Shown piece after piece: positions 3,604 to 22,240 of a stretch of DNA of 41,399 nucleotides. Position 1 is the first letter of the stretch. The number at the start of each line of letters is the position of its first letter. The position numbers and the translations under genes were made by a program. This DNA is from an uncultured Prevotellaceae bacterium. Lineage in GTDB: Bacteria > Bacteroidota > Bacteroidia > Bacteroidales > Muribaculaceae. The stretch covers positions 1-41,399 of the forward strand of contig ONOU01000020.1 in the NCBI GenBank assembly GCA_900319525.1. Direction: 5' to 3'. The notes beneath the pieces were generated by a model. It did not search any database. It was not told the origin of the DNA and was given only the letters and a program-made list of their open reading frames with translations.

Positions 3604-3645
3604 TTCCAAACAATAACAACTAACAAGTTTTAGCAAAACAGAATT

Positions 3646-4641
3646 ATGGCTGTAACCATCAATGACATCAAGAAACTGCGCGACATGACCGGCGCAGGCT
3701 TGAGCGACTGCAAGAAGGCGCTCATCGAGAGCGACAACGACATCACCAAGGCTATGGAGCTGATCCGCAAGCGCGGCCAGGCCATCGCCGCCAAGCGTGA
3801 GGACCGTCAGGCAGCTCAGGGTATTGCTATCGGCAAGACCGACGGTAAGTTTGCTGCTATCATCGCTCTCAAGTGTGAGACCGACTTCGTTGCCAAGAAT
3901 GAGAAGTTTGTCAACCTCGCCAAGGCTATCCTGGACCTCGCAATGGCCCAGAAGCCCGCAAACCTCGACGCGCTGAACGCCCTGGATATGGACGGCAAGC
4001 CCGTGAGCGAGCAGATTACCGCCCTGAGCGGTATCACCGGCGAGAAGATGGAACTGGGTGCCTATGAGTGCCTGGATGCCCCCTCGACCGTTGTTTACAA
4101 CCACTTCAACGGCATGTTGTCGGCAGCTGTTGCCTTCAACCAGGAGAACGTTGCCGAGGATGTTGCCAAGGCTATCGCCATGCAGGTTGCATCGATGAAC
4201 CCCATCAAGGCCACCCGCGATCAGATCTCTCAGGAGGTTATCGACGAGGAGCTGCGCATGGCCATCGACAAGACCAAGGCCGAGCAGGTAAGCAAGGCTG
4301 TTGAGAACGCCCTGAAGAAGGCCGGTTTCAACCCCTACTACTGCGCTACCGAGGAGCACCGCGACGAGGCTATCCGCAAGGGTTACATGACCGAGGAGCA
4401 GGTTGCTGAGGCCCTGAAGCTCATGGACGAGACCGCCAAGCAGAAGGAGGCCAACATGCCCGAGCAGATGATTCAGAACATTGCCCAGGGTCGCCTGAAC
4501 AAGTTCTATCAGGACAACGTGCTCATGGAGCAGATCTATGAGGCTGGCGAGAACAAGGAGACTGTAGCACAGTTCCTGGCCGCTGCCAACAAGGATCTCA
4601 AGGCCATCGACCTGAAGCGTGTCAACCTGAACGTTGACTAA
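3646..4641 (+). CDS. tsf: Elongation factor Ts
   Basis: EF-Ts is the guanine nucleotide exchange factor that recycles EF-Tu-GDP. The 331 residues begin with the UBA-like N-terminal domain carrying TGAGLSDCKKAL at 15-26. The core exchange motif KCETDFVAKN at 76-85 contains the Asp-Phe pair that inserts into EF-Tu. The protein is longer than E. coli EF-Ts (about 283), as often seen in Bacteroidota. It is last in the S2-Ts unit, with the strong terminator at 4680-4720 38 bases downstream. Confidence 0.98.
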   Translation: MAVTINDIKKLRDMTGAGLSDCKKALIESDNDITKAMELIRKRGQAIAAKREDRQAAQGIAIGKTDGKFAAIIALKCETDFVAKNEKFVNLAKAILDLAMAQKPANLDALNALDMDGKPVSEQITALSGITGEKMELGAYECLDAPSTVVYNHFNGMLSAAVAFNQENVAEDVAKAIAMQVASMNPIKATRDQISQEVIDEELRMAIDKTKAEQVSKAVENALKKAGFNPYYCATEEHRDEAIRKGYMTEEQVAEALKLMDETAKQKEANMPEQMIQNIAQGRLNKFYQDNVLMEQIYEAGENKETVAQFLAAANKDLKAIDLKRVNLNVD

Positions 4642-6770: not shown

Positions 6771-9700
6771 CTAGAAACCAGACTTGGGAGGAGTGCGGCG
6801 GCAGAAGTCGATGAACCGGCAATGCGTACAGGGAACCGACCCCTCGTCGGCTTGGTCAAACGGCATGCCATAAAGGGCGCCGATGACCTCTCCCATCCTC
6901 TCAACAAAGGCCCGGGCGACAGCGTCACCCATCGAGAAGAGATACTGTCTGGCAGCTTCACGGCTGCCAGGCGGTTTATATTTTACCCCGCTGTCATTCA
7001 TTGACGCGATCTTGTAGATCACAGGGGCGACAGCATCGACATCACCGTTTTCCAGCAGATAGGCATAGCTGTAGAGGAACAGCTGCAGGATGGCCTTGCG
7101 GCGGCCATTGATGCCATAGTACCTGTTCTTTCCCTTGTCAAACAGGTCATCCAGCGACGAGAAACTCGTGGGGTCGCTGCCTGTCTTATAATCCACGATG
7201 CGCACCGTGCCGTCATTGAGGCGGTCGATGCGGTCAGGCGTATAAGTGAAATGCATCCGGGCATTACCGATGGCCATGTCGCGCAACTCATGGCGGCGCT
7301 CACACTCGAGAATCGTGAACGGGCCTCCATCATCTATGAGATCCAGGTCATGATTGAGCACAAAGTTGACATAACTCTTGATCGTGTCGATGAGCATGAA
7401 GGCTTCTCCACGCAGGGGGCGGGTGTCACCTTCAAGATCCTGCTCGCTCACGTGCAGATAGGTTTTCTTGATATTGCGGATGACAACATGCTCTAGCCTG
7501 TTCTTCTTGAACCACTCGATGTAGGGGCGGTCGATGAGGCCCTGACGGGCCCGCGTCTGCTCGCAATCATAGCAGTCCTTCAACGTGTCGTGAACAATGG
7601 TGCCAAAGGTGCCATAATCCATGAAGTCGCTCACGTCGTTGTCATCGTTCAGGCCCTGCATATACTGCATGTAGAACGACAACGGGCAATTGATGTACTT
7701 GTTGATGGCGCTGGCCGAGAGGAACCACTCGCTAGCATGAGGGCGATGCGACAGATAGCGGCTGCGCAGGTCGGCATAGCCCGCATTGGGTACCTCGACA
7801 GCGATGGGTGATGAAGTATTGACATCAGGGGTCATCTCGACGTGATGCAGCTGCTTGCCATAGATTTTCTCGAGCTGGGCGATGTAACGTGAAGGCTCGG
7901 ACGATGCGGTCTTCTGGGCGCTGGAGTCATAGACCAGCGCGACCTTGGCAGCCCGGTTGAGCAAGCGGTAGAAGTTGTAGGCCACAATCGCCTCCTGCTG
8001 CTCGATGGTGGACATGCCATGGGCTCGGCGGATGTAGTTCGGGATAAACGAGGAGATACTGCGGCGACGCGGAAACACACGCTCATTCATCGACAAGATG
8101 ACCAAGTACTTGAAATCGAGGCTGCGGGTCTCGAGCAAGCCCATGACCTGCAGGCCCTTCAATGGCTCGCCGGTAAAGGCCACAATGGCCGATGCCGACA
8201 GCCTGTCAATCAGGTAGAACACCGTGGAGTTATCCAGCGGTTGACGGCAAGCGCTCAGGGCGTGCTTGAGCTGGTTGAGCACATCGATATACATATCCAG
8301 GAATGCCTGCTGCAGCGGCATCTCGGCATCGGTGTCATCGTCGGCATCCTCACTGGCATCGGGGGCACCCGTTCCCGCATCCATCTTATCCATCAACAGG
8401 TTGCAGAAGGCCAACAGGTGATCCAGATAGCGTTGCCTCGACTCCTGCTCGCCACAGTCCTCATCGCTGTCCAGCGCAGGCACAAACAGGTCCTGGAATG
8501 GTGCGCCCTCAAACTCTGAAGCCGGCACCCTGAAACGGTTGGTACGCGCCAGTTGGGCGGTCAACGACAACGCCGCACTGGTGAAGTGGGTCTTGATGAG
8601 CGGATGGGAAAGGATATCATTCACGTCCTCGCGATAATAGGTCCACACACCGCCTTCCTTAGTCGCCTGATGTTGGAGCCTGGCCACCAAGTGCATGAGC
8701 GAAACGATGCCCGAGTTGCGCAGCGGGTATCCCAGGGTGACATTGAGTTTATCCACATCGTGGACCGAGTGCAGCAGCGGCACCAACAGGTTCTCGTCGG
8801 GCAAGACAATCGCGGTATCGATGTCATCGCCGGCAGCGTTGACTCCACGCATGGCCTTCACCAGGTCAAAGGCCTGCTTGGCTTGTCCCACTGTCGAGGC
8901 GACTGAGACGACAGTGACATCAGGGTCGGCTCCCTCATCGATCGGTTGTACTGCCCTGGCATTAAAGCGCTTGCAATAGCCATCGATGAGCAACGCGCCG
9001 GGATCGTGCGGTGCCTGGTCAAGCAAGCGCTGCACACCGGCGTCGTCCCACCAGTAGTCGGCTTGCCCGGCCTCGTTGAAACGGTCAAACAGTTTGACCT
9101 CGGCAACCGACAGCACACCAAACCCGACGAAAACCAAGCGGGCATGACGCGTCATGTCGATCGCACTCTCCACAGCCAGACGAAGCTGCCTTCCCGGCGA
9201 TACCACTCCGCTGGATGTCAAGACCTTGTGATACTCTTCATAAATCGCGAGCAACGCGTTCCACAGGCTGATGAATTCCTGTTTCACAACACCATCGGCA
9301 CTGGCCGTGTCGCCAGTGGCCCGATGCTGCCACAAGTCGGCATCGGCACTGGTGTCAAAGAAAGCGGTGAACAGGCTGTGGCCGAACACTTTCTCGACCG
9401 CCTCCTGCACCTCGGGGGTGAGATAGTTGCTGCCCAGGCTACCAAGGCTGTCCAAATTGCGGTATATCTCGCCCGCGTCGGCCATCGACCGGTCTATATC
9501 GTTAAAATCACTGATGATGAGTTGAGCCCAGTAGATAAATTTGTCAAATGACTGGGCGTGGTCGCCCATCACCTTGCTATAGGCGTCGTACAGGGCAAAG
9601 ATCATCTCGATGTCAGTCGCCGTGACCGAGTGGGTCAACTCAGCAACCAGGTCGTTGATGGTAGTCACGCGTGGCAGCAGGTGAGGTCGGGCATCGCCTG

Positions 9701-9830
9701 CCGCGAGTTCTTGCTGCATGTAATGGGTAAAGAACTGCCCACTGCGACGGTTGGGAAATACAAAGCAATAGTCCTCAAGGCCTGTTGCCTCAAGGTAGTA
9801 TCGAGCCACTTGCTGGAGAAAAGGGAGCAT
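6771..9830 (-). CDS. AddB-like PD-(D/E)XK nuclease, 4Fe-4S
   Basis: A 1019-residue protein related to AddB/RexB of the recombination nuclease-helicases. The C-terminal nuclease has the DRIDRL and VDYKTG motifs (residues about 866 and 880; the Asp and Asp-x-Lys ligands). Cysteines at about 715 (INKYINCPLSFY) and CTHCRFIDFC near 999-1008 match the C...CxxCxxxxxC Fe-S staple of AddB. The N-terminal helicase-like part (CFVFPNRRSGQFF) has no Walker A, so it is probably a structural domain. An AddA/UvrD-type partner would be expected but is not in the window. It lies 63 bases downstream of the delta' gene and converges on the S4 gene with 3 bases between stops. Confidence 0.9.
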   Translation of the reverse strand: MLPFLQQVARYYLEATGLEDYCFVFPNRRSGQFFTHYMQQELAAGDARPHLLPRVTTINDLVAELTHSVTATDIEMIFALYDAYSKVMGDHAQSFDKFIYWAQLIISDFNDIDRSMADAGEIYRNLDSLGSLGSNYLTPEVQEAVEKVFGHSLFTAFFDTSADADLWQHRATGDTASADGVVKQEFISLWNALLAIYEEYHKVLTSSGVVSPGRQLRLAVESAIDMTRHARLVFVGFGVLSVAEVKLFDRFNEAGQADYWWDDAGVQRLLDQAPHDPGALLIDGYCKRFNARAVQPIDEGADPDVTVVSVASTVGQAKQAFDLVKAMRGVNAAGDDIDTAIVLPDENLLVPLLHSVHDVDKLNVTLGYPLRNSGIVSLMHLVARLQHQATKEGGVWTYYREDVNDILSHPLIKTHFTSAALSLTAQLARTNRFRVPASEFEGAPFQDLFVPALDSDEDCGEQESRQRYLDHLLAFCNLLMDKMDAGTGAPDASEDADDDTDAEMPLQQAFLDMYIDVLNQLKHALSACRQPLDNSTVFYLIDRLSASAIVAFTGEPLKGLQVMGLLETRSLDFKYLVILSMNERVFPRRRSISSFIPNYIRRAHGMSTIEQQEAIVAYNFYRLLNRAAKVALVYDSSAQKTASSEPSRYIAQLEKIYGKQLHHVEMTPDVNTSSPIAVEVPNAGYADLRSRYLSHRPHASEWFLSASAINKYINCPLSFYMQYMQGLNDDNDVSDFMDYGTFGTIVHDTLKDCYDCEQTRARQGLIDRPYIEWFKKNRLEHVVIRNIKKTYLHVSEQDLEGDTRPLRGEAFMLIDTIKSYVNFVLNHDLDLIDDGGPFTILECERRHELRDMAIGNARMHFTYTPDRIDRLNDGTVRIVDYKTGSDPTSFSSLDDLFDKGKNRYYGINGRRKAILQLFLYSYAYLLENGDVDAVAPVIYKIASMNDSGVKYKPPGSREAARQYLFSMGDAVARAFVERMGEVIGALYGMPFDQADEGSVPCTHCRFIDFCRRTPPKSGF

Positions 9831-9860
9831 GGGATTTGGTGCGTTTAAAGTTCGTTGGGT

Positions 9861-9893
9861 TTATTTTCAGGTTATTTTCAGGTTATTTTCAGG
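9861..9893. repeat. Three tandem copies of an 11-bp repeat (TTATTTTCAGG)
   Basis: Perfect copies occupy 9861-9871, 9872-9882 and 9883-9893 and abut the stop codon of the delta' gene. On the transcribed strand each unit is cctgaaaataa. Because 11 is not a multiple of 3, the TAA codons fall in all three frames. Confidence 0.95.
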
Positions 9894-11024
9894 TTATTTC
9901 CTGATGAGAATGGACAAGCGGATGGTAAGGTCAAACAAGATGAGCTTGGCTTGTCCGTTGCCGGCGATATCGGCACTGGCGCGCTCCAGCTCGCTGACGA
10001 TGCCCTCGACGTTGCGCTCGTTGATAAACGGAGAGAAACGGGTCGAGAAGGCCGCCTCCTCGCGAGTGAGGTAATTGAGGGCTGGATTGTGCAGATTGTA
10101 GATGAAATTCTCACGCACCTGCCGCACGGCATAGTCGAGAAAACGGCGGGCCTTCTCACGCTTCATGTCGGCTATGGTTTCGCTCCACGACCTGAGCTTG
10201 GCCAGGTCATGCTGGTAAGAAAGACGCATCAGCTCGATGAAACGCTCACGAAACTCGTGAAATTCGCTACCGGTCTGCACCAGGCGTTCGGCCATAGTGA
10301 CATTGCCGTCGGCAGGGGCAGCAATTGCAAGCGCATCCTGAGGATCCATGTCATAGCGGTCGGCCAGGTATTGAGCCACCATCGGGGTTGAAGGTTTGCG
10401 CAGCTCGATGCGCTGGCAACGTGACAGGATAGTGCCCAGGATGCCCTTCTCATTATCACTCACAAGAATGAACTTGCAGTCGTCATAAGGCTCCTCGATG
10501 AGCTTCAACAGCTTGTTGGCAGCCTCTTCTTTCAATTTCTCGGGCAGCCACATGATCAAGACCTTATACTTGGCCGTATAGGCGCTCAGGGTCATCTTGC
10601 GCATGATGCTGTCGGCCTCGCGCACAAAGATCTGAGGCTGGGCATTGTCGTTCTTCAACAGCCCGAGCCACGCCTGGTAATCCTCGACAGGATACTTGGT
10701 GACAAACTCGCGCCACTCGTCGATATAGTCGGCCGCATCACAGGGGCTGTTACTATCACCCTTACGGTTAGTAAAGGGATAGCTGAAGTGGGTATCAACC
10801 TGGTTAAATGACTGGTGCTGACGGCATAGCGGGCACACGCCACATGAGTCACCGTCCACATGGTTCTTGCAGTGCAGATATTGTGCGGCGGCCATCGCTA
10901 GGCCCAATTTGGGCACGCCCGGCTCACCATACAGCAGCAATGCGTGCGGCAGGCGGTCATCGTCTATCATGCGTCTGATCTGGTTTATCGCCTGCTCGTT
11001 ACCTAAAACTTCGCTGAATTTCAT
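9894..11024 (-). CDS. holB: DNA polymerase III subunit delta'
   Basis: Clamp-loader subunit delta' (376 residues from the ATG at 11024, start MKFSEVLGN). An upstream in-frame start at 11093 would add 23 unlike residues and run through the promoter region, so I reject it. The AAA+ P-loop region reads GEPGVPKLG (33-41), degenerate as expected for delta', which does not hydrolyse ATP. Zinc-binding Cys residues lie at about 52, 61, 64 and 67 (CGVCPLC). The sensor-1 region includes ILSRCQRIEL, the SRC motif that serves as arginine finger. It is divergent from vsr. Confidence 0.92.
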   Translation of the reverse strand: MKFSEVLGNEQAINQIRRMIDDDRLPHALLLYGEPGVPKLGLAMAAAQYLHCKNHVDGDSCGVCPLCRQHQSFNQVDTHFSYPFTNRKGDSNSPCDAADYIDEWREFVTKYPVEDYQAWLGLLKNDNAQPQIFVREADSIMRKMTLSAYTAKYKVLIMWLPEKLKEEAANKLLKLIEEPYDDCKFILVSDNEKGILGTILSRCQRIELRKPSTPMVAQYLADRYDMDPQDALAIAAPADGNVTMAERLVQTGSEFHEFRERFIELMRLSYQHDLAKLRSWSETIADMKREKARRFLDYAVRQVRENFIYNLHNPALNYLTREEAAFSTRFSPFINERNVEGIVSELERASADIAGNGQAKLILFDLTIRLSILIRK

Positions 11025-11102
11025 GTCTCCTAGTCCTTTGTTTGGGAGTGTAAAGATACTACATTTTCTCCAACCACACTCACATCCAATCAAAAAATAT
11101 CA

Positions 11103-12964: not shown

Positions 12965-12995
12965 TTTGTCAATAATAAAATAATACCTAATTTTG
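12965..12995 (+). promoter_or_regulatory. Promoter of the cit-acn-icd cluster
   Basis: TTTG at 12965-12968 and TAATTTTG at 12988-12995 are spaced 19 bp. It is the only good promoter in the 270-base gap before citD. The predicted leader is about 72 bases and AT-rich. No operator-like palindrome is evident. Confidence 0.8.
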
Positions 12996-13073
12996 AGCGC
13001 TCTTAAGCAACCATCTAATTGACAACATTAACATCTATTTATTCATATTTTTAAAACATTGTAAAACTAAAAA

Positions 13074-13355
13074 ATGGAGATCAAAACGGCGATGGCCGGA
13101 ACGCTTGAATCCGGCGACATTTTCATCCAGATTGCACCCAACGACAACGCTGGACTGCACATTGATCTTGACAGTACGGTAGCCTACCAGTTTGGCGACC
13201 AAATCAAGAAAGTAATCACCGAGACCCTGCAGGGACTGGGCATTGACCAAGCCGAGGTAAAAGCCACGGACAAGGGAGCCCTTGACTGCACCATCCGCGC
13301 CCGCGTGACGGCAGCTGCCGTTCGCGCTACCGGCAAAGACGTGTGGGCCGACTAA
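13074..13355 (+). CDS. citD: Citrate lyase acyl carrier protein (gamma subunit)
   Basis: The carrier subunit of citrate lyase. The prosthetic group 2'-(5''-triphosphoribosyl)-3'-dephospho-CoA is attached to a Ser, here Ser13 in AGTLESGD. The 93 residues match the family length. Acetyl groups on this arm are exchanged for citryl by CitF and cleaved by CitE. It is first in the operon, 39 bases before citE, the usual D-E-F order. Confidence 0.96.
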   Translation: MEIKTAMAGTLESGDIFIQIAPNDNAGLHIDLDSTVAYQFGDQIKKVITETLQGLGIDQAEVKATDKGALDCTIRARVTAAAVRATGKDVWAD

Positions 13356-13394
13356 TTAACACCGAAAAAAACCATCTAAAACGAGAAAATTGTT

Positions 13395-14300
13395 ATGCAA
13401 CGACTCAGAAGAACAATGATGTTTGTCCCTGGTAACAACCCGGGAATGATGGCCGACGCTCACATTTACAGTCCCGATTCAATCATGCTCGACCTCGAGG
13501 ACTCTGTATCGATGGCCGAAAAGGACGCAGCGCGTCTGCTTGTTCACAATGCACTCAAGACCATCGACTACGGTAACACCGAGATGGTGGTACGTATCAA
13601 CCCGTTGAACACCCCCTATGGCAAGAAGGATGTTGAGGCAGTGGTAAAGGCTGGCGTTCACGTCATCCGCATGCCCAAGACCGAGACCGCTGAGGAGGTG
13701 AAGGAACTTGAAGAAGAAATCATCAAGGTGGAGACCGAGCTGGGTTGCGTAGGCCGCACCCAAATCATGGCCGCTATCGAGAGCACGCTGGGCGCACTCA
13801 ACGCCTATTCCATCGCTACCGCAAGCAAGCGCATGATGGGTATCGCCCTGGGTGCCGAGGACTATTGCGCTAACCTGAAGGCACAGCGCACAACGGGCGA
13901 CTCGCCCTTCTTCGGCATGGAATTGCAAATGGCTCGTCAGTGCATCGTGACGGCTGCCCGTGCTGCCGGCATCGACGCCCTGGACACCGTATTCAGCAAC
14001 CTCAACGATATGGACACCTTCCGTCGCGAAGTCGAGATGATCAAGGCTATGGGCTTTGACGGCAAGTCGATCATCAATCCCCGCCAAATCGAGGTCGTCA
14101 ATGAGGTCTTCGCTCCCAAGGAGAAGGAAATCGAGAAGGCCAAGACCATCATCGCCGCTATCAAGGAAGCCGAGAAGCGTGGCAGTGGCGTTATCGCCGT
14201 TAACGGCAAGATGGTTGACCGTCCCGTGGTTATCAGAGCACAACGTACCATCGACCTGGCCATCGCGTCGGGCATCATGACAAAGGAGGACTTAGCATGA
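13395..14300 (+). CDS. citE: Citrate lyase beta subunit (citryl-ACP lyase)
   Basis: Splits citryl-ACP into oxaloacetate and acetyl-ACP. The 301-residue TIM-barrel protein of the HpcH/CitE family has RRTMMFVPGNNPGM at the N-terminus, MLDLEDSV (acidic Mg-binding region, near residue 33), VVRINPLNTPYG, and GAEDYCANL. The length is normal. Its last four bases overlap the citF start (ATGA at 14297-14300), so the two are translationally coupled. Confidence 0.96.
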   Translation: MQRLRRTMMFVPGNNPGMMADAHIYSPDSIMLDLEDSVSMAEKDAARLLVHNALKTIDYGNTEMVVRINPLNTPYGKKDVEAVVKAGVHVIRMPKTETAEEVKELEEEIIKVETELGCVGRTQIMAAIESTLGALNAYSIATASKRMMGIALGAEDYCANLKAQRTTGDSPFFGMELQMARQCIVTAARAAGIDALDTVFSNLNDMDTFRREVEMIKAMGFDGKSIINPRQIEVVNEVFAPKEKEIEKAKTIIAAIKEAEKRGSGVIAVNGKMVDRPVVIRAQRTIDLAIASGIMTKEDLA

Positions 14301-15835
14301 ACAGTATCAAAGATAGAGCAGCCCAGATTGCAGAGGTTGCACAGCAGATGAATAAGGCAGTCTATAACGACTCCAATGTAAAGAAAGATCCGACTCCTCG
14401 TTTCGAGTTGCAGCGCAAGAACAACAAGGTGGTGACCCTTGAGGAAGCCATCAAGAAGAGCGGTCTCAAGGACGGCATGACCATCTCGTTCCACCACCAC
14501 TTCCGCGGCGGTGACAAGGTGATCAACATGGTAGTGGCAAAGCTCGCCGAGATGGGTTTCAAGAACCTGACTCTGGCCTCGTCGAGCCTTATCGACGTGC
14601 ATGAGCCCCTGATCGAGCACATCAAGAACGGCGTGATCACCCAGCTGCACACCAGCGGCCTGCGCGGTGCCCTCGCTACCGAGGTTTCGCACGGTCTGAT
14701 GGAGAAGCCCGTCATCTTCCGCAGCCATGGCTCGCGTGGCTATGCCATCAAGAGCGGTGAGTTGCACATCGACGTCGCCTTCCTGGGCGCCTCGTCATGC
14801 GACCCCCTGGGCAACGCTGCCGGTTACTCGAACAGCGAGAACGCCAAGAGCATCTGCGGTTCTTTGGGTTATGCCCTGCCCGATGCCAAGTATGCCGACA
14901 CGACCGTCATCCTCACCGACGACCTGGTTGATTATCCCAACCAGCACGGCTGCATCAGCGAGGCCGATGTGGACTATGTTGTCGTTGTTGACTCGGTAGG
15001 CGACTCGAGCAAGATTTCCTCGGGTGCCATCCGCGACACCAAGAATCCTCGCGACATCCTCCTGGCCAAGCAGGCTGCCAAGGTGGTCATGAACAGCGGT
15101 TACTTTGAGAACGGTTTCTCGCTGCAGACCGGTTCGGGCGGTGCTTCGCTCGCCGTGACCAAGTACCTGCGTCAAGGTATGATCGACAAGGGCATCAAGG
15201 CCAGCTTCGCCCTGGGCGGCATCACCAGCCACATGGTGAAACTGCATCAGGAGGGCCTGATCGGCCGTCTGATTGACGTTCAGTCGTTTGACAAGGTAGC
15301 TGCCGAGTCGTTGATGAACGACCCGATGCACAAGTGCGTTTCAGCCAACGAGTATGCCGCCATGCTGGAGCCGGGTTCTGCAACCCACTTCCTGGATGTC
15401 GTTATCCTGTCGGCACTGGAGGTTGACGTGAACTTCAATGTTAACGTGCTCGTGGGTAGCGACGGCATCATCCGTGGCGCTATCGGCGGTCACCCCGACA
15501 CCGCTCAAGACAGCGCCCTGTCGGTTATCGTTTGCCCGCTGCTGCGTGGCCGCATCCCCTGCGTCGTTGACGAGGTAACTACCCTGATCACTCCGGGCAG
15601 CAATGTTGACGTTGTCGTTACCGAGTACGGTATCGCCGTTAACCCCAGCCGTCCCGAGATCAAGGAGCGTCTCGAGGCTGCCGGCCTGAAGATTGTGGAC
15701 ATCCACGATCTGGCTGCCAAGGCCCGCTCGATCATCGGCGATCCCGCTCCCCTGCCCTTCGGCGACAAGATTGTGGGCGTCGTTTTGAACCGCGACGGCT
15801 CGGTACAGGACGTTATCAAGAATATCGTGGACTAA
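14297..15835 (+). CDS. citF: Citrate lyase alpha subunit (citrate:acetyl-ACP transferase)
   Basis: Transfers the carrier arm from acetate to citrate, giving citryl-ACP and acetate. The 512 residues match the family length. Recognisable segments are ISFHHHFRGGDKVINMV near 77-93, SHGSRGYAIKSGELHIDVA, GCISEADVDYVVVVDSVG and TGSGGASLAVTKYL, followed by VTEYGIAVNPSRP near the end. It overlaps citE by 4 bases. citX starts 34 bases downstream. Confidence 0.97.
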   Translation: MNSIKDRAAQIAEVAQQMNKAVYNDSNVKKDPTPRFELQRKNNKVVTLEEAIKKSGLKDGMTISFHHHFRGGDKVINMVVAKLAEMGFKNLTLASSSLIDVHEPLIEHIKNGVITQLHTSGLRGALATEVSHGLMEKPVIFRSHGSRGYAIKSGELHIDVAFLGASSCDPLGNAAGYSNSENAKSICGSLGYALPDAKYADTTVILTDDLVDYPNQHGCISEADVDYVVVVDSVGDSSKISSGAIRDTKNPRDILLAKQAAKVVMNSGYFENGFSLQTGSGGASLAVTKYLRQGMIDKGIKASFALGGITSHMVKLHQEGLIGRLIDVQSFDKVAAESLMNDPMHKCVSANEYAAMLEPGSATHFLDVVILSALEVDVNFNVNVLVGSDGIIRGAIGGHPDTAQDSALSVIVCPLLRGRIPCVVDEVTTLITPGSNVDVVVTEYGIAVNPSRPEIKERLEAAGLKIVDIHDLAAKARSIIGDPAPLPFGDKIVGVVLNRDGSVQDVIKNIVD

Positions 15836-15869
15836 ACTGATTTAGCCCAAACTTTATAAAGCACTAGCG

Positions 15870-16373
15870 ATGGAGATTACGCTCGACGCTCTACTGCAAA
15901 GCCGTGACAACCGTCACGCGCTGCAACAGCAGTTACTACTGCAACACCCCGGTCACACCCTCGTGTGCCTGACCGTGGTGATGCCAGGAAGCGTCAAGCG
16001 TAATCTCTACTCGGTGGTGACCGCACAGGCGGCACTCACAGCGCTGCTCGACCGACTGGGTGAGCACGTATGCGCAACGCGCGCACGGGATCTGGTAACC
16101 GGTTATGAGGCCTACCTCATCACCGACTTGCCGGCACTGGAGGCCAAACGTGTGACCTGTGAAATTGAAGACAGCCACCCGTTAGGGCGGCTGTTCGACA
16201 TTGATGTCATGGGTGCCGATGGAGCCCCTATCAGCCGTCAGACGGTGGGTGGAGAGCCACGGCGTTGCCTGCTGTGTGAACACGAGTCACGCTGGTGCAT
16301 GCGCAACCACAGCCACTCTCAGGAGGAGCTGATGGCACACATCCAACAAGTGGTTGAAGACTATGTACGATAG
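15870..16373 (+). CDS. citX: Apo-citrate lyase phosphoribosyl-dephospho-CoA transferase
   Basis: Attaches the triphosphoribosyl-dephospho-CoA group to the Ser of CitD. The 167 residues carry the family marks: LVCLTVVMPGSVKRN near 31-45, PLGRLFDIDVMG near 109-120, and a C-terminal RRCLLCEHESRWCMR motif with Cys residues, then NHSHSQEEL. The length is slightly below E. coli CitX. Its last 11 bases overlap the start of the citC-citG gene. Confidence 0.95.
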   Translation: MEITLDALLQSRDNRHALQQQLLLQHPGHTLVCLTVVMPGSVKRNLYSVVTAQAALTALLDRLGEHVCATRARDLVTGYEAYLITDLPALEAKRVTCEIEDSHPLGRLFDIDVMGADGAPISRQTVGGEPRRCLLCEHESRWCMRNHSHSQEELMAHIQQVVEDYVR

Positions 16374-18129
16374 CAACTTTGAAATCTGCGACATGCCGCT
16401 CTCACTCAAGTCCAACCGGACTCGGGTGGAGCGTTTCCTTGCCGACAATGGCCTGCGTCTAGACGACGTGGACTACTATGCCGCCGCCACCGATGACGAC
16501 GGCAACATCATTGCAGGTGGTGGGTTGCAGGGTAACGTGATCAAGTGCATAGCCGTGGGCGAGGCAGCCCGCGAGACGGGACTGAGCAACCGCCTCATCA
16601 GCCACCTCATCGGCATGGCTACCCGGGATGGCGCCGACACGGTCAAGGTCTATACCAAACCCGATAACAGCGCCATCTTTGAGAGCATGGGCTTCCGCAT
16701 CATCGCCCAAGCCCCCAAAGCCATCCTGATGGAAAACGGTGTGAAAGGAATCAAGGCCTACACCGACTACCTGCATGACATGCGCGGTGACCGTCCTGAC
16801 GGTGCCACCGCCATCGTGATGAACGCCAACCCGTTCACGCTGGGACACCGCTACCTCATCAACAATGCGGCCCGGGAAGCGACGACACTCTATGTCATCG
16901 CCGTGAGAGAAGACCGTTCGTCGTTCAGCTACCGGGAACGTCTGGCAATGATCCAGGCAGGTTGTGAAGAGCTGGACAACGTGGTGGTGATTGAAGGCAG
17001 TGACTATGCCATCAGCGAGTTGACCTTCCCCACCTACTTCCTCAAGCAGGTAACCGACGCTACCGACACCCACATCACGCTGGATCTGGACTTGTTTGCC
17101 CGTCACATCGCACCCGCTCTGGGTGTGACCACACGTTGTGTGGGCAGCGAGCCCATCGATGCTTTGACAGCCCGCTACAACGAGCTCATGCAGGAGCAGT
17201 TGCCACAACGCGGCATCAAGGTCAAGACCATTGAGCGCCTGGTACTTGACGGCAAGCCCGTGAGTGCCTCACGCATGCGCCAATGGCTGGCCGACGGCTC
17301 ACTGAGTCAAGCCGCGGCACTGGTACCCCAGACAACCGACCCCTACCTCATCTCGCACCTGGCATGTGACGCCTTGCGCGCCGAGCTCAACACCACACCC
17401 AAGCCTGGCCTGGTGGACCGCAATGACAACGGTGCCCACCGCGACATGAACCTGGCCATGATGGACAGCAGCATCGACACGCTGCAACCGTTCTTCACGA
17501 GTCTGGCCCTGTATGGAAGCTCCTGTGGCGAGAACTTTGAGGTGCCTGACGCCCAAGAGGTGCGTCGCATCGGCATCGACGCCGAGGCCGCCATGCTCAA
17601 CACCACTGGCGGAGTCAACACCCATCGCGGCGCTCTGTTCGCCATGGGACTGACCACGCTGGCTGCAGCGTGGTGCCAAGTGCGCGACGTGCTGGTGGGC
17701 AGCAAGCAGTTGCGTGAACTCATCATGCAGGTCGCTGGACAATTCGCTCCCACGGCGGGCACCCACGGCAATGAAGCCGTGAATGCGCACCGTGTGACTG
17801 GAGCCCTCGACCTGGCCAAGGGTGGCTACACACAACTGTTCAACAACTGGTTGCCCGCTTATCGCGATTACCTGGCCCAGGACGCCTCTACAGCCCGCCA
17901 CCGCCTGCTGCTGCTCATCATGAGCCAGCTCGATGACACCAACGTCATCCACCGCGTGGGCTATGAGCAGGCACAACGCGTCAAGCAAGAAGCGCTGATG
18001 CTGCTCGACAATTACAGCACTGCCGGCATGGAGGCGATGAACCGCGACTACATCGCGCGCAATGTTTCCCCTGGCGGCAGCGCCGACATGGTGGCTCTCA
18101 CCATTTTTATTCACTCGATATTGAATTAA
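16363..18129 (+). CDS. citC-citG: Fused citrate lyase ligase (CitC) and triphosphoribosyl-dephospho-CoA synthase (CitG)
   Basis: One 588-residue chain with two complete activities. Residues 1 to about 325 are CitC, which acetylates the carrier arm using ATP and acetate: an N-terminal GNAT-like domain (GNVIKCIAVGEAARETGL near 57-74), then the nucleotidyltransferase motif NPFTLGHRYL at 156-165 and VSASRMR at 300-306. Residues about 330-588 are CitG, which makes the arm precursor from dephospho-CoA and ATP: TPKPGLVDRNDNGAHRDM at 345-362, GVNTHRGALFAMG at 417-429 and PTAGTHGNEA. No stop or frameshift separates them. I chose the ATG at 16363; a TTG 9 bases upstream also fits. The fusion needs confirmation as a single polypeptide. 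Confidence 0.93.
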   Translation: MYDSNFEICDMPLSLKSNRTRVERFLADNGLRLDDVDYYAAATDDDGNIIAGGGLQGNVIKCIAVGEAARETGLSNRLISHLIGMATRDGADTVKVYTKPDNSAIFESMGFRIIAQAPKAILMENGVKGIKAYTDYLHDMRGDRPDGATAIVMNANPFTLGHRYLINNAAREATTLYVIAVREDRSSFSYRERLAMIQAGCEELDNVVVIEGSDYAISELTFPTYFLKQVTDATDTHITLDLDLFARHIAPALGVTTRCVGSEPIDALTARYNELMQEQLPQRGIKVKTIERLVLDGKPVSASRMRQWLADGSLSQAAALVPQTTDPYLISHLACDALRAELNTTPKPGLVDRNDNGAHRDMNLAMMDSSIDTLQPFFTSLALYGSSCGENFEVPDAQEVRRIGIDAEAAMLNTTGGVNTHRGALFAMGLTTLAAAWCQVRDVLVGSKQLRELIMQVAGQFAPTAGTHGNEAVNAHRVTGALDLAKGGYTQLFNNWLPAYRDYLAQDASTARHRLLLLIMSQLDDTNVIHRVGYEQAQRVKQEALMLLDNYSTAGMEAMNRDYIARNVSPGGSADMVALTIFIHSILN

Positions 18130-18162
18130 TAACCCTATATCAATTAACATCTAAATTTTATC

Positions 18163-20409
18163 ATGGTAGAATTAATCAATCAAGGAGTTTACTTAATCAA
18201 CGGTAACGAAATTCGCACTGATGCCACTGGTCTTCCCACGCCTGACGAGGCTCGTGAGAACACCATCACCTACGGCATCCTGCGTTCACATGACGTGGAT
18301 GGCAGCAAGGGCAAGAAGATGCGCATCCGCTTTGACGCGATGATGTCGCACGACATCACCTACGTGGGCATTATCCAAACGGCCCGCGCCAGTGGTCTCG
18401 AGAAGTTCCCCCTGCCCTACGCTATGACCAACTGCCACAACTCGCTGTGCGCCGTGGGCGGCACCATCAACGAGGATGACCACGTGTTCGGTCTGTCGGC
18501 AGCCAAGAAGTATGGCGGCATCTACGTTCCCGCCAACCAGGCCGTTATCCACCAGTTTGCCCGCGAGGCAATGGTGAAGTGCGGTAACATGATTCTGGGT
18601 AGCGACAGCCACACCCGCTATGGTTCGCTCGGTAACATGGGCGTTGGCGAAGGTGGTGGTGAGCTCGTGAAGCAGCTGCTGCGCAACACTTGGGACATCA
18701 ATGCCCCCGAGGTTGTCCTGGTATGGTTGGAAGGCGCTCCCCGCAAGGGTGTAGGTCCCCACGATGTTGCTATCTCGCTCGTTAAGGCTACCTTCGAGAG
18801 CGGCTTTGTTAAGAACAAGGTGCTCGAGTTTGCAGGCCCTGGCGTGAAGAACCTGCCCATCGACTTCCGTAACGGTATCGACATCATGACCACCGAGACC
18901 ACCTGCTTGAGCTCAATCTGGGTTACCGACGACGAGGTGAAGCACCACTATGAGATTCACCAGCGTCCCGAGGACTTCAAGGTTCTGCAACCCGGTGAGG
19001 TGGCATACTATGACAGCATGATCAAGATTGACCTGAGCACTCAGGAGTGTATGATCGCTCTGCCTTACCACCCCAGCAACGCCTTCACTATCCACGAGCT
19101 GCAGGCCAATCCCACCGAGATCCTGCGCAAGGTCGAGGAGGATACCAAGAAGCGCTTCGGCGACAAGGTACAGTGCGACCTCGTTGACAAGGTGATGAAG
19201 GACGGCAAGGTACAGGCCGACCAGGGTATTATCGCTGGTTGCTCGGGCGGTACCTATGACAACCTGAGCGCTGCTGCCAGCATCATGCGCGGCAAGAGCA
19301 TCGGTAACGACTACTTCACCATGAGCGCTTATCCCCAGTCGGTTCCCGTTTACATGGCAGCCGTACGCCAGCACATCGTCGAGGAGCTGCTCGAGACTGG
19401 TACGATCATCAAGCCCGCCTTCTGCGGTCCTTGCTTCGGTGCCGGCGACGTTCCCAGCAACAATGGTCTGTCAATCCGTCACACCACCCGCAACTTCCCC
19501 AACCGCGAGGGTTCCAAGCCCGGTCAGGGTCAGATCTCGCTGGTTGCCCTGATGGATGCCCGCTCAATCGCTGCTACCGCAGCTAACGGAGGCGTCATCA
19601 CCGCTGCCACCGACGTTGACTACACCGACGACCACAAGCCCTACGAGTACGACGCCAAGATCTATGAGCGCCGCGTATATTACGGCTATGGCAAGGCTGA
19701 GGCCGACGTCGAGCTGCGCTATGGTCCCAACATCAAGGACTGGCCCAAGATGTATGCTATGGAGGACAACATGCTGCTCGAACTTGCAGCCGTTATCCAT
19801 GACAGCGTAACCACCACCGACGAGTTGATCCCCAGCGGTGAGACCTCGAGCTACCGCTCCAACCCCCTGAAGCTCTCTGAGTTCGCCCTGTCACGCCGCG
19901 TGCCTGAGTACGTAGGCCTAAGCAAGCGCATCCAGGAGCAGGATCACGAGCGCCGCGACGGCAAGTGCCCGCAGCACGTAATCGACGCCCTGGCAAAGGT
20001 TGGCGCTAAGCCCGAGAACACCTCGTTTGGCTCTTGCGTATTTGCCCACAAGCCCGGTGACGGTTCTGCACGTGAGCAGGCCGCTTCTTGCCAGAAGGTG
20101 CTCGGTGGCGACGCCAACATCTGCTACGAGTACGCTACCAAGCGCTATCGCAGCAACTGTATCAACTGGGGTATCGTGCCCTTCACCATCGCTCCCGATG
20201 TTGAGTTCAACTACAACCCCGGTGACATGGTATTCGTTCCCGGCATCCGTGAGGCCATCATCAGCGGCAAGGAGGAAATTGATGCCAAGGTTATCGCTGC
20301 CGACGGCGTGCATGACCTGCACCTCTTCTTCCAGAACCTGACCCAAGACGAGCGCACCATCCTCGCCGAGGGCTGCCTGATGAACTTCTACGCTTCACAG
20401 AAGAAGTAA
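18163..20409 (+). CDS. acnA: Aconitate hydratase, mitochondrial type
   Basis: Interconverts citrate and isocitrate through cis-aconitate with a 4Fe-4S cluster. The 748 residues have cluster Cys ligands at 360 (GCSGG), 421 and 424 (CGPCFGAG). By recall these closely match the ligand positions of mitochondrial aconitase (358, 421, 424). The SHTRYGSLGNMGVGEGGGE segment and the C-terminal swivel domain are present. Mitochondrial-like aconitase in an operon with icd and citrate synthase was described in Bacteroides fragilis. Here it follows the citrate lyase genes by 33 bases with no promoter or terminator between, so it is probably co-transcribed with them. Confidence 0.96.
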   Translation: MVELINQGVYLINGNEIRTDATGLPTPDEARENTITYGILRSHDVDGSKGKKMRIRFDAMMSHDITYVGIIQTARASGLEKFPLPYAMTNCHNSLCAVGGTINEDDHVFGLSAAKKYGGIYVPANQAVIHQFAREAMVKCGNMILGSDSHTRYGSLGNMGVGEGGGELVKQLLRNTWDINAPEVVLVWLEGAPRKGVGPHDVAISLVKATFESGFVKNKVLEFAGPGVKNLPIDFRNGIDIMTTETTCLSSIWVTDDEVKHHYEIHQRPEDFKVLQPGEVAYYDSMIKIDLSTQECMIALPYHPSNAFTIHELQANPTEILRKVEEDTKKRFGDKVQCDLVDKVMKDGKVQADQGIIAGCSGGTYDNLSAAASIMRGKSIGNDYFTMSAYPQSVPVYMAAVRQHIVEELLETGTIIKPAFCGPCFGAGDVPSNNGLSIRHTTRNFPNREGSKPGQGQISLVALMDARSIAATAANGGVITAATDVDYTDDHKPYEYDAKIYERRVYYGYGKAEADVELRYGPNIKDWPKMYAMEDNMLLELAAVIHDSVTTTDELIPSGETSSYRSNPLKLSEFALSRRVPEYVGLSKRIQEQDHERRDGKCPQHVIDALAKVGAKPENTSFGSCVFAHKPGDGSAREQAASCQKVLGGDANICYEYATKRYRSNCINWGIVPFTIAPDVEFNYNPGDMVFVPGIREAIISGKEEIDAKVIAADGVHDLHLFFQNLTQDERTILAEGCLMNFYASQKK

Positions 20410-20413
20410 TTTA

Positions 20414-20444
20414 TTCTGGTTCCAGGCAAGGGCCTGGAACCAGA
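20414..20444 (+). promoter_or_regulatory. Perfect 14-bp hairpin between acnA and icd
   Basis: ttctggttccaggc (20414-20427) pairs fully with 20431-20444 around a 3-base loop. There is no T tract afterwards, so it is more likely an mRNA stabiliser, processing site or attenuator than a full terminator. No TAnnTTTG box lies between it and icd. Confidence 0.7.
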
Positions 20445-20532
20445 AGATTAGAGATTCTAGCTTGAACTCTTAAAAACAATAGAAACAACAATTATCAATC
20501 TTTTATAAACCAAACTGATTTAATTTATCAAG

Positions 20533-21747
20533 ATGGAGAAAATTAAAATGACGACCCCCATCGTGGAGATGGACGGTGACGAGATGACCCGCATCCTGTG
20601 GAAGATGATCAAGGACGACCTTATCCTTCCGTTTGTTGATCTCAAGAGTGAGTACTATGACCTGGGTCTGGTAAAGCGCGACGAGACTGGTGACAAGATC
20701 ACCGTCGAGGCTGCCGAGGCTACCAAGAAGTATGGTGTTGCCGTTAAGTGCGCCACCATCACCCCCAACCTGAAGCGTATGGACGAGTACAAGCTGCACG
20801 AGATGTGGAAGAGCCCCAACGGCACCATCCGTTCGATTCTCGACGGTACCGTATTCCGCGCTCCCATCACCATCCCCAGCATCCACCCCGTTGTAAAGAA
20901 CTGGGAGAAGCCCATCACCATCGCTCGTCATGCTTATGGCGACGTTTACAAGAGTGTTGAGCTGCGTGCCGACGAGCCCGGTACCGCCAAGTTGGTCTTT
21001 GACGGCGTTAGCGGCAAGCACGAGGAGATCGTTATCCACGAGTTCAAGGGCGAGGGCGTCCTCCAGGGTATGCACAACCTGGACAAGTCCATCCGTTCGT
21101 TTGCTCACAGCTGCTTCAAGTATGCTATCGACACCAAGCAGGATCTGTGGTTCTCGACCAAGGACACCATCAGCAAGAAGTATGACGCTCAGTTCCGCAT
21201 CATCTTTGAGGAGGTTTACGAGCAGAACTACAAGGCTGAGTTCGAGAAGCTGGGTCTGGAGTACTTCTACACCCTGATCGACGACGCTGTTGCTCGCGTG
21301 ATCCGCAGCAAGGGTGGTTACATCTGGGCTTGCAAGAACTACGACGGCGACGTGATGAGCGACATGGTCAGCACCGCTTTCGGTTCACTGGCTATGATGA
21401 CCAGTGTGCTGGTTAGCCCCGACGGCAACTACGAGTATGAGGCTGCTCACGGCACCGTGACCCGCCACTACTACAAGTACCTCAATGGCGAGGAGACCTC
21501 GACCAACCCCATGGCTACCATCTTTGCATGGAGCGGTGCCCTGCGCAAGCGCGGCGAGAAGGACGGTCTCAAGGACCTCATGAACTTCGGTGACCAGCTC
21601 GAGGCTGCTTGCTTCGACACCCTGAACGCCGGTATCGTGACCAAGGACCTCGTGAACCTGATGGAAGGTGTTGAGGCCAAGGCCGTGAACAGCGCCGACT
21701 TCATCAAGGCCATCCGCGCCAACCTCGAGAAGCGCCTGGGCTGCTAA
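20533..21747 (+). CDS. icd: NADP-dependent isocitrate dehydrogenase, eukaryotic type
   Basis: Oxidatively decarboxylates isocitrate to 2-oxoglutarate. The 404 residues belong to the dimeric type with TPIVEMDGDEMTRILW at the N-terminus, KSPNGTIRSILDGTVFR (substrate-phosphate loop, Ser), and NYDGDVMSDMVSTAFGSL (metal-binding Asp residues). HGTVTRHYYK keeps the Arg-His pair that binds the NADP 2'-phosphate in animal IDH, so NADP use is likely. It follows acnA by 123 bases. In B. fragilis citrate synthase is part of this operon; here a terminator follows directly. Confidence 0.97.
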   Translation: MEKIKMTTPIVEMDGDEMTRILWKMIKDDLILPFVDLKSEYYDLGLVKRDETGDKITVEAAEATKKYGVAVKCATITPNLKRMDEYKLHEMWKSPNGTIRSILDGTVFRAPITIPSIHPVVKNWEKPITIARHAYGDVYKSVELRADEPGTAKLVFDGVSGKHEEIVIHEFKGEGVLQGMHNLDKSIRSFAHSCFKYAIDTKQDLWFSTKDTISKKYDAQFRIIFEEVYEQNYKAEFEKLGLEYFYTLIDDAVARVIRSKGGYIWACKNYDGDVMSDMVSTAFGSLAMMTSVLVSPDGNYEYEAAHGTVTRHYYKYLNGEETSTNPMATIFAWSGALRKRGEKDGLKDLMNFGDQLEAACFDTLNAGIVTKDLVNLMEGVEAKAVNSADFIKAIRANLEKRLGC

Positions 21748-21770
21748 TCCCCTGACGTTTCCTTGACAAT

Positions 21771-22240
21771 TTAGACGAGAGAGCCCCACGCCCGTGAGGC
21801 CCTCTCGCTTTTTCTTGTCAAACCTAATGATTTCATTATATCGCCATTCCACAGCGCCTTGAAGAACTCCAGCACAGGCCACACCTCTACTCGATTGATT
21901 ACACGACAGGCTGCATCGAGCAAAATGATGATATTCCGAGCTGCTGGATGCCCCTCGGCAAAGGCCCTCAGACCTTTTATGTGACAAGGCTGGACTTCAT
22001 TTGATGATTTAACTTCTATAGCTTCTTCGGCATCACCGTACACTACATCCACTTCATAGCCTGAGGCCGTGCGCCAATAGCTCAACTGCTTGCGTTGACG
22101 AGTGTAGGACACATAGGCGAAAAGTTCCTGCACAATCAAGTGCTCTAACGCATGGCCTAAGTCTGCCGATCCTGGCTCCAATTGCCTTAGGTTACACAGA
22201 TAATTGACAATTCCCTTATCAAAAAAACAAAACCCACCGA
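21771..22240 (-). pseudogene. Remnant of an ATPase with DUF4143 domain (C-terminal part)
   Basis: The minus strand encodes the C-terminal DUF4143 region of a bacterial AAA ATPase family: CFFDKGIVNYL, then LEPGSADLGHALEHLIVQEL, SYWRTASGYEVDVVYG and EAIEVKSSNEV (the nuclease-like E-V-D...E-V-K pattern). Similarity begins near 22240. Upstream the same frame gives unrelated residues and then a stop, and the whole N-terminal ATPase domain is missing, so the gene is truncated. An apparent start at 22181 is a TTG inside the domain. Its 3' end overlaps the icd terminator. Confidence 0.8.
21776..21813 (+). terminator. Intrinsic terminator of the cit-acn-icd cluster
   Basis: The stem cgagag/ctctcg (21776-21781 with 21802-21807) continues after one A-C mismatch into gcc/ggc and a small inner cac/gtg helix. 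T5 follows at 21809-21813. Confidence 0.85.

Follow-up and report, generated by a model that had tools for sequence, protein, structure and literature searches.

A conserved operon joining citrate lyase genes to a YbhJ-type hydratase and isocitrate dehydrogenase in an uncultured gut Bacteroidales bacterium

What a citrate lyase operon that runs on into genes for an aconitase-like hydratase and an isocitrate dehydrogenase does in a bacterium with no detectable citrate synthase is the question raised by contig ONOU01000020.1 of an uncultured Prevotellaceae bacterium (GenBank assembly GCA_900319525.1; Muribaculaceae in the GTDB lineage). Positions 1 to 41,399 of its forward strand were analyzed and are called the window here. 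The source organism is a gut bacterium, probably of rumen origin. A conserved seven-gene operon, citD-citE-citF-citX-citC/G-hydratase-icd, was confirmed (Table 1). Its genes lie on the same strand at positions 13074-21747, and none of these open reading frames (ORFs) has an internal stop. They are separated by gaps of 39, 34, 33, and 123 bases, and the remaining neighbors overlap. The gene order, spacing, and leading promoter described in an initial annotation were borne out by the ORFs, the families, and a motif scan, and the names of the cit genes and icd stood; acnA, the name given to the sixth gene, did not. We favor, with a probability of roughly 0.4, a reductive function in which 2-oxoglutarate would be converted via citrate to acetate and oxaloacetate, over the use of imported citrate; the gene content and an energetic estimate point in this direction.

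The bacterial citrate lyase system was complete by family profiles, with CitDEF, CitC, CitX, and CitG all present. CitF also matched the solved citrate lyase alpha subunit (PDB 1xr4, E 7.1e-175), and CitE, for which the PF03328 match was clear, scored 433.8 bits on TIGR01588, slightly below the cut-off of 443.4. The fused CitC/G protein reached 318.1 bits on TIGR00124 (cut-off 262.1) and 6e-60 on PF01874, with the CitG/MdcB NCBIfam models below their cut-offs; its ATG start at 16363 was chosen by homology, and the ORF list gives a TTG at 16354.

Conservation was analyzed in the nearest 80 of 413 CitF relatives (76-98% identity, contig scan), and the figures describe near relatives. These loci come from Muribaculaceae, Prevotellaceae, Prevotella, Bacteroidales, and others, are mostly metagenome assembled and in many cases ruminant, and include the isolates Prevotella bivia DSM 20514 and Leyella stercorea An906. 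Where the sequence extended 2.7 kb or more beyond citC/G (54 loci), the hydratase gene came next in 53; where it extended 4.6 kb or more (45 loci), both hydratase and icd stood behind the cit genes in 41, the exceptions being L086, L088, L098, and L115. The other 26 of the 80 loci were too short or citC/G was not visible. As most of the 80 loci have the same gene order, chance proximity of the genes is ruled out. For five of the operon genes, compared across 45 loci, distance correlations were 0.53-0.82, compatible with coinheritance in a comparison made without a control. The best explanation is an accessory, coinherited operon for an ATP-independent citrate lyase, its maturation enzymes, the hydratase, and an NADP-type isocitrate dehydrogenase (Icd). 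In the Leyella stercorea locus L096 (11540-14795), an insert of about 3.3 kb with ATPase-like and sigma-factor-like ORFs, as judged by eye, lies between citF and citX. No earlier description of the operon was found in a literature search, which had most subscription papers outside its reach.

The absence of citrate synthase, asserted in the initial annotation, held for the window's own genome (94.5% complete), in which neither PF00285 (control matches, 13/14) nor PF00682 (control matches, 14/14) was found; the possibility that a citrate synthase, of one or the other known type, had been overlooked was rejected on these grounds. The lack of PF00682 argues against a Re-citrate synthase, an oxaloacetate decarboxylase alpha subunit, and pyruvate carboxylase B, and with both families absent none of the known internal sources of citrate is present in the genome. 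LeuA-type enzymes are seemingly missing from this genome (G000) as well, with leucine auxotrophy or an assembly gap as possible reasons.

The suggestion that the lyase had taken the place of citrate synthase was not supported. PF00285 matched 0 of 225 genomes of the family (presumably Muribaculaceae, judging by record titles), full-length CitF was present in only 54 (38 of the 48 in the window's genus and 16 of the 177 elsewhere), and neither CitF nor Icd was found in 163. Among 38 carrier genomes of unstated completeness searched from the 80 loci, citrate synthase was present in 6, and 32, P. bivia included, gave no match; icd occurred in none of six citrate synthase regions examined, and one had a mitochondrial-type aconitase beside the synthase. 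Since the absence of the synthase is broader than the operon (225/225 versus CitF in 54/225), the operon is accessory and the lyase no essential stand-in. The idea that the Bacteroides operon had simply exchanged its synthase for a lyase was likewise rejected, given this absence and the different aconitase subfamily described below.

Icd was found in 60 family genomes at 1e-30 (61 at 1e-3), with the match in G156 excluded as a 42-residue fragment. Outside the genus, CitF and Icd occurred in exactly the same genomes, 16 in a set of 177 (Fisher P = 4.5e-23, with the genomes not independent of one another). Within it (n = 48), 36 had both, 2 had CitF only (G201 and G204), 8 had Icd only, and 2 had neither; 7 of the 8 Icd-only matches were partial, that of G175 being nearly whole, and the Icd-only pattern is likely due to assembly gaps. 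In an order-wide sample of 295 genomes, PF00285 was found in 163, CitF at 1e-30 in 115, and Icd at 1e-30 in 43. Genomes there with diverged CitF types often have citrate synthase too, and the two are therefore not mutually exclusive as a rule. CitF matches below 1e-200 were restricted to the window's genome and G513, both without PF00285 and both with Icd.

The hydratase scored 1184.1 bits on NF008503 (PRK11413; cut-off 641) compared with 110.1 bits on TIGR01340 for mitochondrial-like aconitase (cut-off 825.35), a model on which the citrate synthase-linked aconitase of L181 scores 1106.3 bits. It is 56% identical to Escherichia coli YbhJ (413 of 743 aligned residues) and 22-26% identical to the aconitases encoded next to citrate synthase in other Bacteroidales (six regions). 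The acnA label was rejected on this evidence in favor of a YbhJ/PRK11413-type hydratase, a subfamily separate from AcnA. A profile comparison with the citrate synthase-linked aconitases covered 691 columns at a probability of 99.4% and 23% identity. The Fe-S cluster cysteines 360, 421, and 424, the DSH motif, Arg565 (the position of bovine Arg580), and Ser635 were kept in 19 aligned proteins and match the citrate synthase-linked aconitases; the surroundings of His92 and residue Ala636 set the subfamily apart from mitochondrial aconitase. From residue conservation and gene context, the isomerization of citrate and isocitrate is presumed. An AlphaFold2 model of the hydratase, for which 19 close homologues were used, was of poor quality, with a mean pLDDT of 51.5.

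A passage of PMC4054840 terms YbhJ a catalytically inactive paralogue. YbhJ and the operon protein are identical at all 22 positions compared, so inactivity of YbhJ is not explained by loss of these residues; if it were correct and family-wide, the aconitase step of the operon would fail. The same source places the E. coli ybhJ deletion among mutants with lowered NADPH, icd likewise, which would fit YbhJ acting upstream of isocitrate dehydrogenase.

In the reductive reading, 2-oxoglutarate would arise from succinyl-CoA through a ferredoxin-dependent 2-oxoacid oxidoreductase. Under rumen or gut conditions Icd would convert it with CO2 and NADPH to isocitrate, the YbhJ-type hydratase would turn isocitrate into citrate, and citrate lyase would split citrate into oxaloacetate and acetate. 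Together with putative malate dehydrogenase, fumarase, fumarate reductase, and succinyl-CoA synthetase, these steps would form a closed reductive tricarboxylic acid (TCA) loop that consumes CO2 and reductant and releases acetate, not acetyl-CoA; where AckA and Pta adjoin, the summed reaction would be that of ATP-citrate lyase. The wider claim that many rumen and gut Bacteroidales run a reductive TCA cycle closed by ATP-independent citrate lyase, with the YbhJ-type hydratase as aconitase and two CO2 and eight electrons ending in acetate as a fermentative electron sink, is a tentative one that we consider doubtful.

A KorA-type 2-oxoacid:ferredoxin oxidoreductase subunit exceeded the family cut-off in 221 of the 225 genomes, and only the cut-off is informative, since at E 0.001 all 225 genomes match but so do 14/14 controls. 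The 2-oxoglutarate:ferredoxin oxidoreductase considered in the initial annotation has a candidate in the window's own genome (TIGR03710, 7.6e-189; model not specific for 2-oxoglutarate). With KorA near-universal, 2-oxoglutarate can probably be formed from succinyl-CoA whether or not the operon is present and need not derive from citrate. Labeling in Bacteroides, according to PMC11304471, shows 2-oxoglutarate and glutamate formed by way of succinate, not citrate, despite the presence of citS-icd-acnA. That the operon is needed for 2-oxoglutarate was rejected on the same KorA count and on the 163 relatives that lack CitF as well as Icd. For the opposite direction, from acetate and oxaloacetate to 2-oxoglutarate, an estimate with assumed equilibrium constants and concentration ranges gave a median of +17.4 kJ/mol in the rumen (5-95%, 7.4 to 27.5), +9.1 kJ/mol in a low-CO2 gut, and -10.7 kJ/mol in a favoring set. 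As this route is uphill, the reductive sense would usually be downhill.

Genes adjoining related operons would also fit. In one subclade of near relatives, AckA (14 loci) and Pta (13 loci, within 2.5 kb) were encoded before the operon on the same strand, their identity being based on one copy each compared with NCBIfam. In L083, a class I fumarase gene preceded the operon, and a bifunctional NF009414 protein, presumably NfnAB-like, was encoded after icd there (1355.1 bits) and in L087. A pyruvate carboxylase B/OadA-like protein was encoded after icd in L099 and L102, the L102 copy scoring 241 bits, below the cut-offs. Acetate, fumarate, NADPH, and oxaloacetate, which these neighbors are predicted to touch, are the ends of the proposed route. 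In L104, a fumarylacetoacetate-hydrolase-family gene (3631-4503) ends 18 nucleotides (nt) ahead of the citD match; some members of this family act on oxaloacetate.

Several observations weigh against the reductive reading. One of the four genomes with KorA below the cut-off (G022, G030, G043, and G097), namely, G097, is an operon carrier, and the KorA model does not discriminate 2-oxoglutarate from other substrates. The Pta-AckA group is a single subclade with a separate promoter motif before its citD, and the fumarase, Nfn-like, and OadA-like neighbors are rare (1, 2, and 2 loci). Four roomy loci lack a downstream icd, one of them also the hydratase, and six carrier genomes have citrate synthase. 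The nearest studied relative of the hydratase is called inactive in the passage noted above, which makes the aconitase step putative. The patchy distribution also suits a nutrient-use operon, and a carrier of the DASS family was found in 4 of 5 tested carrier genomes outside the family set, P. bivia (G537) included. For B. fragilis, the part of PMC11304471 concerned with labeling refers to earlier studies in support of an oxidative citrate branch.

The main rival is that citrate, or a plant tricarboxylate such as aconitate, is imported, with the lyase supplying acetate and oxaloacetate for succinate and the hydratase and Icd supplying 2-oxoglutarate and NADPH. This is possible, if on the whole unlikely. 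Without citrate synthase, external citrate would be the simplest source, and the distribution is patchy, as for a nutrient trait. In E. coli strain PI24 (L187, 1-2916), the anion permease gene ybhI is followed by ybhJ in the same orientation, a hint that the substrate of YbhJ in that species is an acid taken up from outside. DASS carriers occurred in 7 of 24 operon carriers of the family, in addition to the 4 of 5 others; however, 4 of 22 noncarriers of the family had them too (P = 0.50, no enrichment), and the window's own genome and 16 further family carriers had none. As the initial annotation had stated, neither a carrier nor an oxaloacetate decarboxylase was found among the operon genes, and no ORF with multiple membrane segments (at least 220 amino acids, within 6 kb) recurred beside the operon in the 80 loci, as judged by eye with no family search. 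One ORF near the operon in L101 resembles a dicarboxylate symporter by eye. No 2HCT carrier was found in 51 genomes, own genome included (control matches, 2/14), and no DASS carrier in the own genome or the single-contig genome G161 of the same genus; the search did not extend to CitMHS or tripartite carriers. Import thus appears weakened for the window's genome, and the earlier argument against plain citrate fermentation was upheld by its lack of DASS, 2HCT, and PF00682/OadA.

An improbable alternative is that the hydratase acts on another hydroxy acid or is regulatory, the operon being a cluster of assorted central-metabolism genes that form no single linear pathway. The reported inactivity of YbhJ (PMC4054840, in the passage cited) would agree with this, as would the differences between the subfamily and mitochondrial aconitase near His92 and at Ala636 and the hydratase kept in L088, L098, and L115 with no icd behind it. 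The Fe-S cysteines, DSH motif, Arg565, and Ser635 shared by the 19 aligned proteins and the citrate synthase-linked aconitases argue against it, as does the location of the gene, which in 41 of 45 loci lies between icd and the cit genes. The poorest candidate is lyase reversal, in which citrate formed from acetate and oxaloacetate would be oxidized to 2-oxoglutarate for glutamate, the lyase serving as an ATP-sparing citrate synthase: an intact lyase with an aconitase-like gene and icd but no synthase, Pta-AckA beside the operon in one subclade, and the high acetate of the gut would suit it, but it was feasible in only 0.1% of rumen and 7.0% of low-CO2 gut states (99.7% in the set chosen to favor it; assumed constants), KorA in 221/225 genomes provides another likely source of 2-oxoglutarate, and 171/225 relatives lack full-length CitF. 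Among the three options named in the initial annotation, the reductive branch therefore fits best, imported citrate is possible, and lyase reversal is disfavored by the estimate.

A single cit-acn-icd transcription unit, as proposed earlier, is likely, with good support, short of proof, from the distribution of the promoter motif. This motif class, of the Bacteroidetes type, had 6 occurrences in the window, where 0.41 would be expected, and none within the operon. In 49 of 65 loci it lay no more than 300 nt from citD, and it was found internally, from citD to icd, once across 50 operons (378 kb). The closing terminator that had been described was recovered as a hairpin with a U-run at about 21775-21808. 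General terminator and sigma-70 scans did not rise above shuffled sequence, and Rfam gave zero matches at the gathering threshold within the window. Median neighbor gaps across related loci were -14 to 50 nt, and that between hydratase and icd was 110 nt. Stems of at least 10 bp were found in this last gap in 15 of 50 other loci and perfect stems of at least 8 bp in 19 of 50 (three very short gaps excluded); they may therefore give icd a separate expression level. The stems differ in sequence among near relatives, as though the stem were maintained.

In a tree of 46 Icd rows, from which L182 was excluded for an internal stop, the Icd of the window and 30 selected cit-linked Icd fell on one side of a branch with support of 99/95. 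The cit-linked Icd were closest to citrate synthase-linked Icd from two genomes (families f84 and f73). Upstream on the minus strand (6771-11093) are genes for an AddB-like PD-(D/E)XK nuclease and a DNA polymerase III delta-type protein, unrelated to the operon.

Table 1. Features of the citrate lyase-hydratase-icd operon in the window
Feature	Position	Strand	Support
Promoter-like element, Bacteroidetes type, TTTG-N19-TAATTTTG, perfect match	12965..12995	+	Motif scan
citD, citrate lyase acyl carrier protein (gamma)	13074..13355	+	TIGR01608 7e-32, NF009726 2.5e-34
citE, citrate lyase beta subunit	13395..14300	+	TIGR01588 2.3e-130, PF03328 4.5e-74
citF, citrate lyase alpha subunit	14297..15835	+	TIGR01584 691.9 bits
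citX, holo-ACP synthase	15870..16373	+	TIGR03124 1.1e-46
citC-citG fusion, citrate lyase ligase and triphosphoribosyl-dephospho-CoA synthase	16363..18129	+	TIGR00124, PF01874
Aconitase-superfamily hydratase, YbhJ/PRK11413 subfamily, presumed citrate/isocitrate isomerase	18163..20409	+	NF008503
14-bp perfect hairpin between hydratase gene and icd, no U-run behind	20414..20445	+	z -5.3 for entire gap
icd, NADP-type isocitrate dehydrogenase	20533..21747	+	NF006156 638.5 bits; PDB 4aou E 4.9e-186
Intrinsic terminator-like hairpin and U-run	21775..21813	+	Segment dG -24.5, z -6.1

If the reductive reading is true, CO2 would be fixed into acetate in rumen and gut Bacteroidales through a reversed branch of the Krebs cycle that competes with methane formation for reductant, and the role of acn and icd in anaerobes that derive glutamate from succinate would become testable. 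On any reading, the operon offers a concrete candidate reaction for YbhJ proteins, an orphan family whose E. coli member has been called inactive.

With the cit operons of citrate fermenters such as Klebsiella, Leuconostoc, and E. coli, the operon shares the CitD, E, F, X, and C/G domains, a full self-maturing set for an ATP-independent lyase. In contrast to them, it has no carrier, oxaloacetate decarboxylase, or CitAB among its genes, runs on into the hydratase gene and icd, and has CitC and CitG fused. The citS-icd-acnA operon of Bacteroides fragilis was reportedly described by Baughn and Malamy in 2002. Like that operon, as presented in part of PMC11304471, the one described here links an aconitase-type enzyme with an NADP-type isocitrate dehydrogenase. 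It differs in having no citrate synthase and in its aconitase-like enzyme, distant as noted from the citrate synthase-linked aconitases of other Bacteroidales. The E. coli relative of this enzyme, reported as inactive, is encoded beside ybhI and not beside cit genes or icd. With reductive TCA cycles based on ATP-citrate lyase, on CCS/CCL, or on reversed citrate synthase, the proposed route would share 2-oxoglutarate carboxylation, the aconitase step, and citrate cleavage, in the same direction. In contrast to these cycles, it would use an ATP-independent lyase, yield acetate instead of acetyl-CoA, and operate in a presumed heterotroph, with cyclic flux as a proposal.

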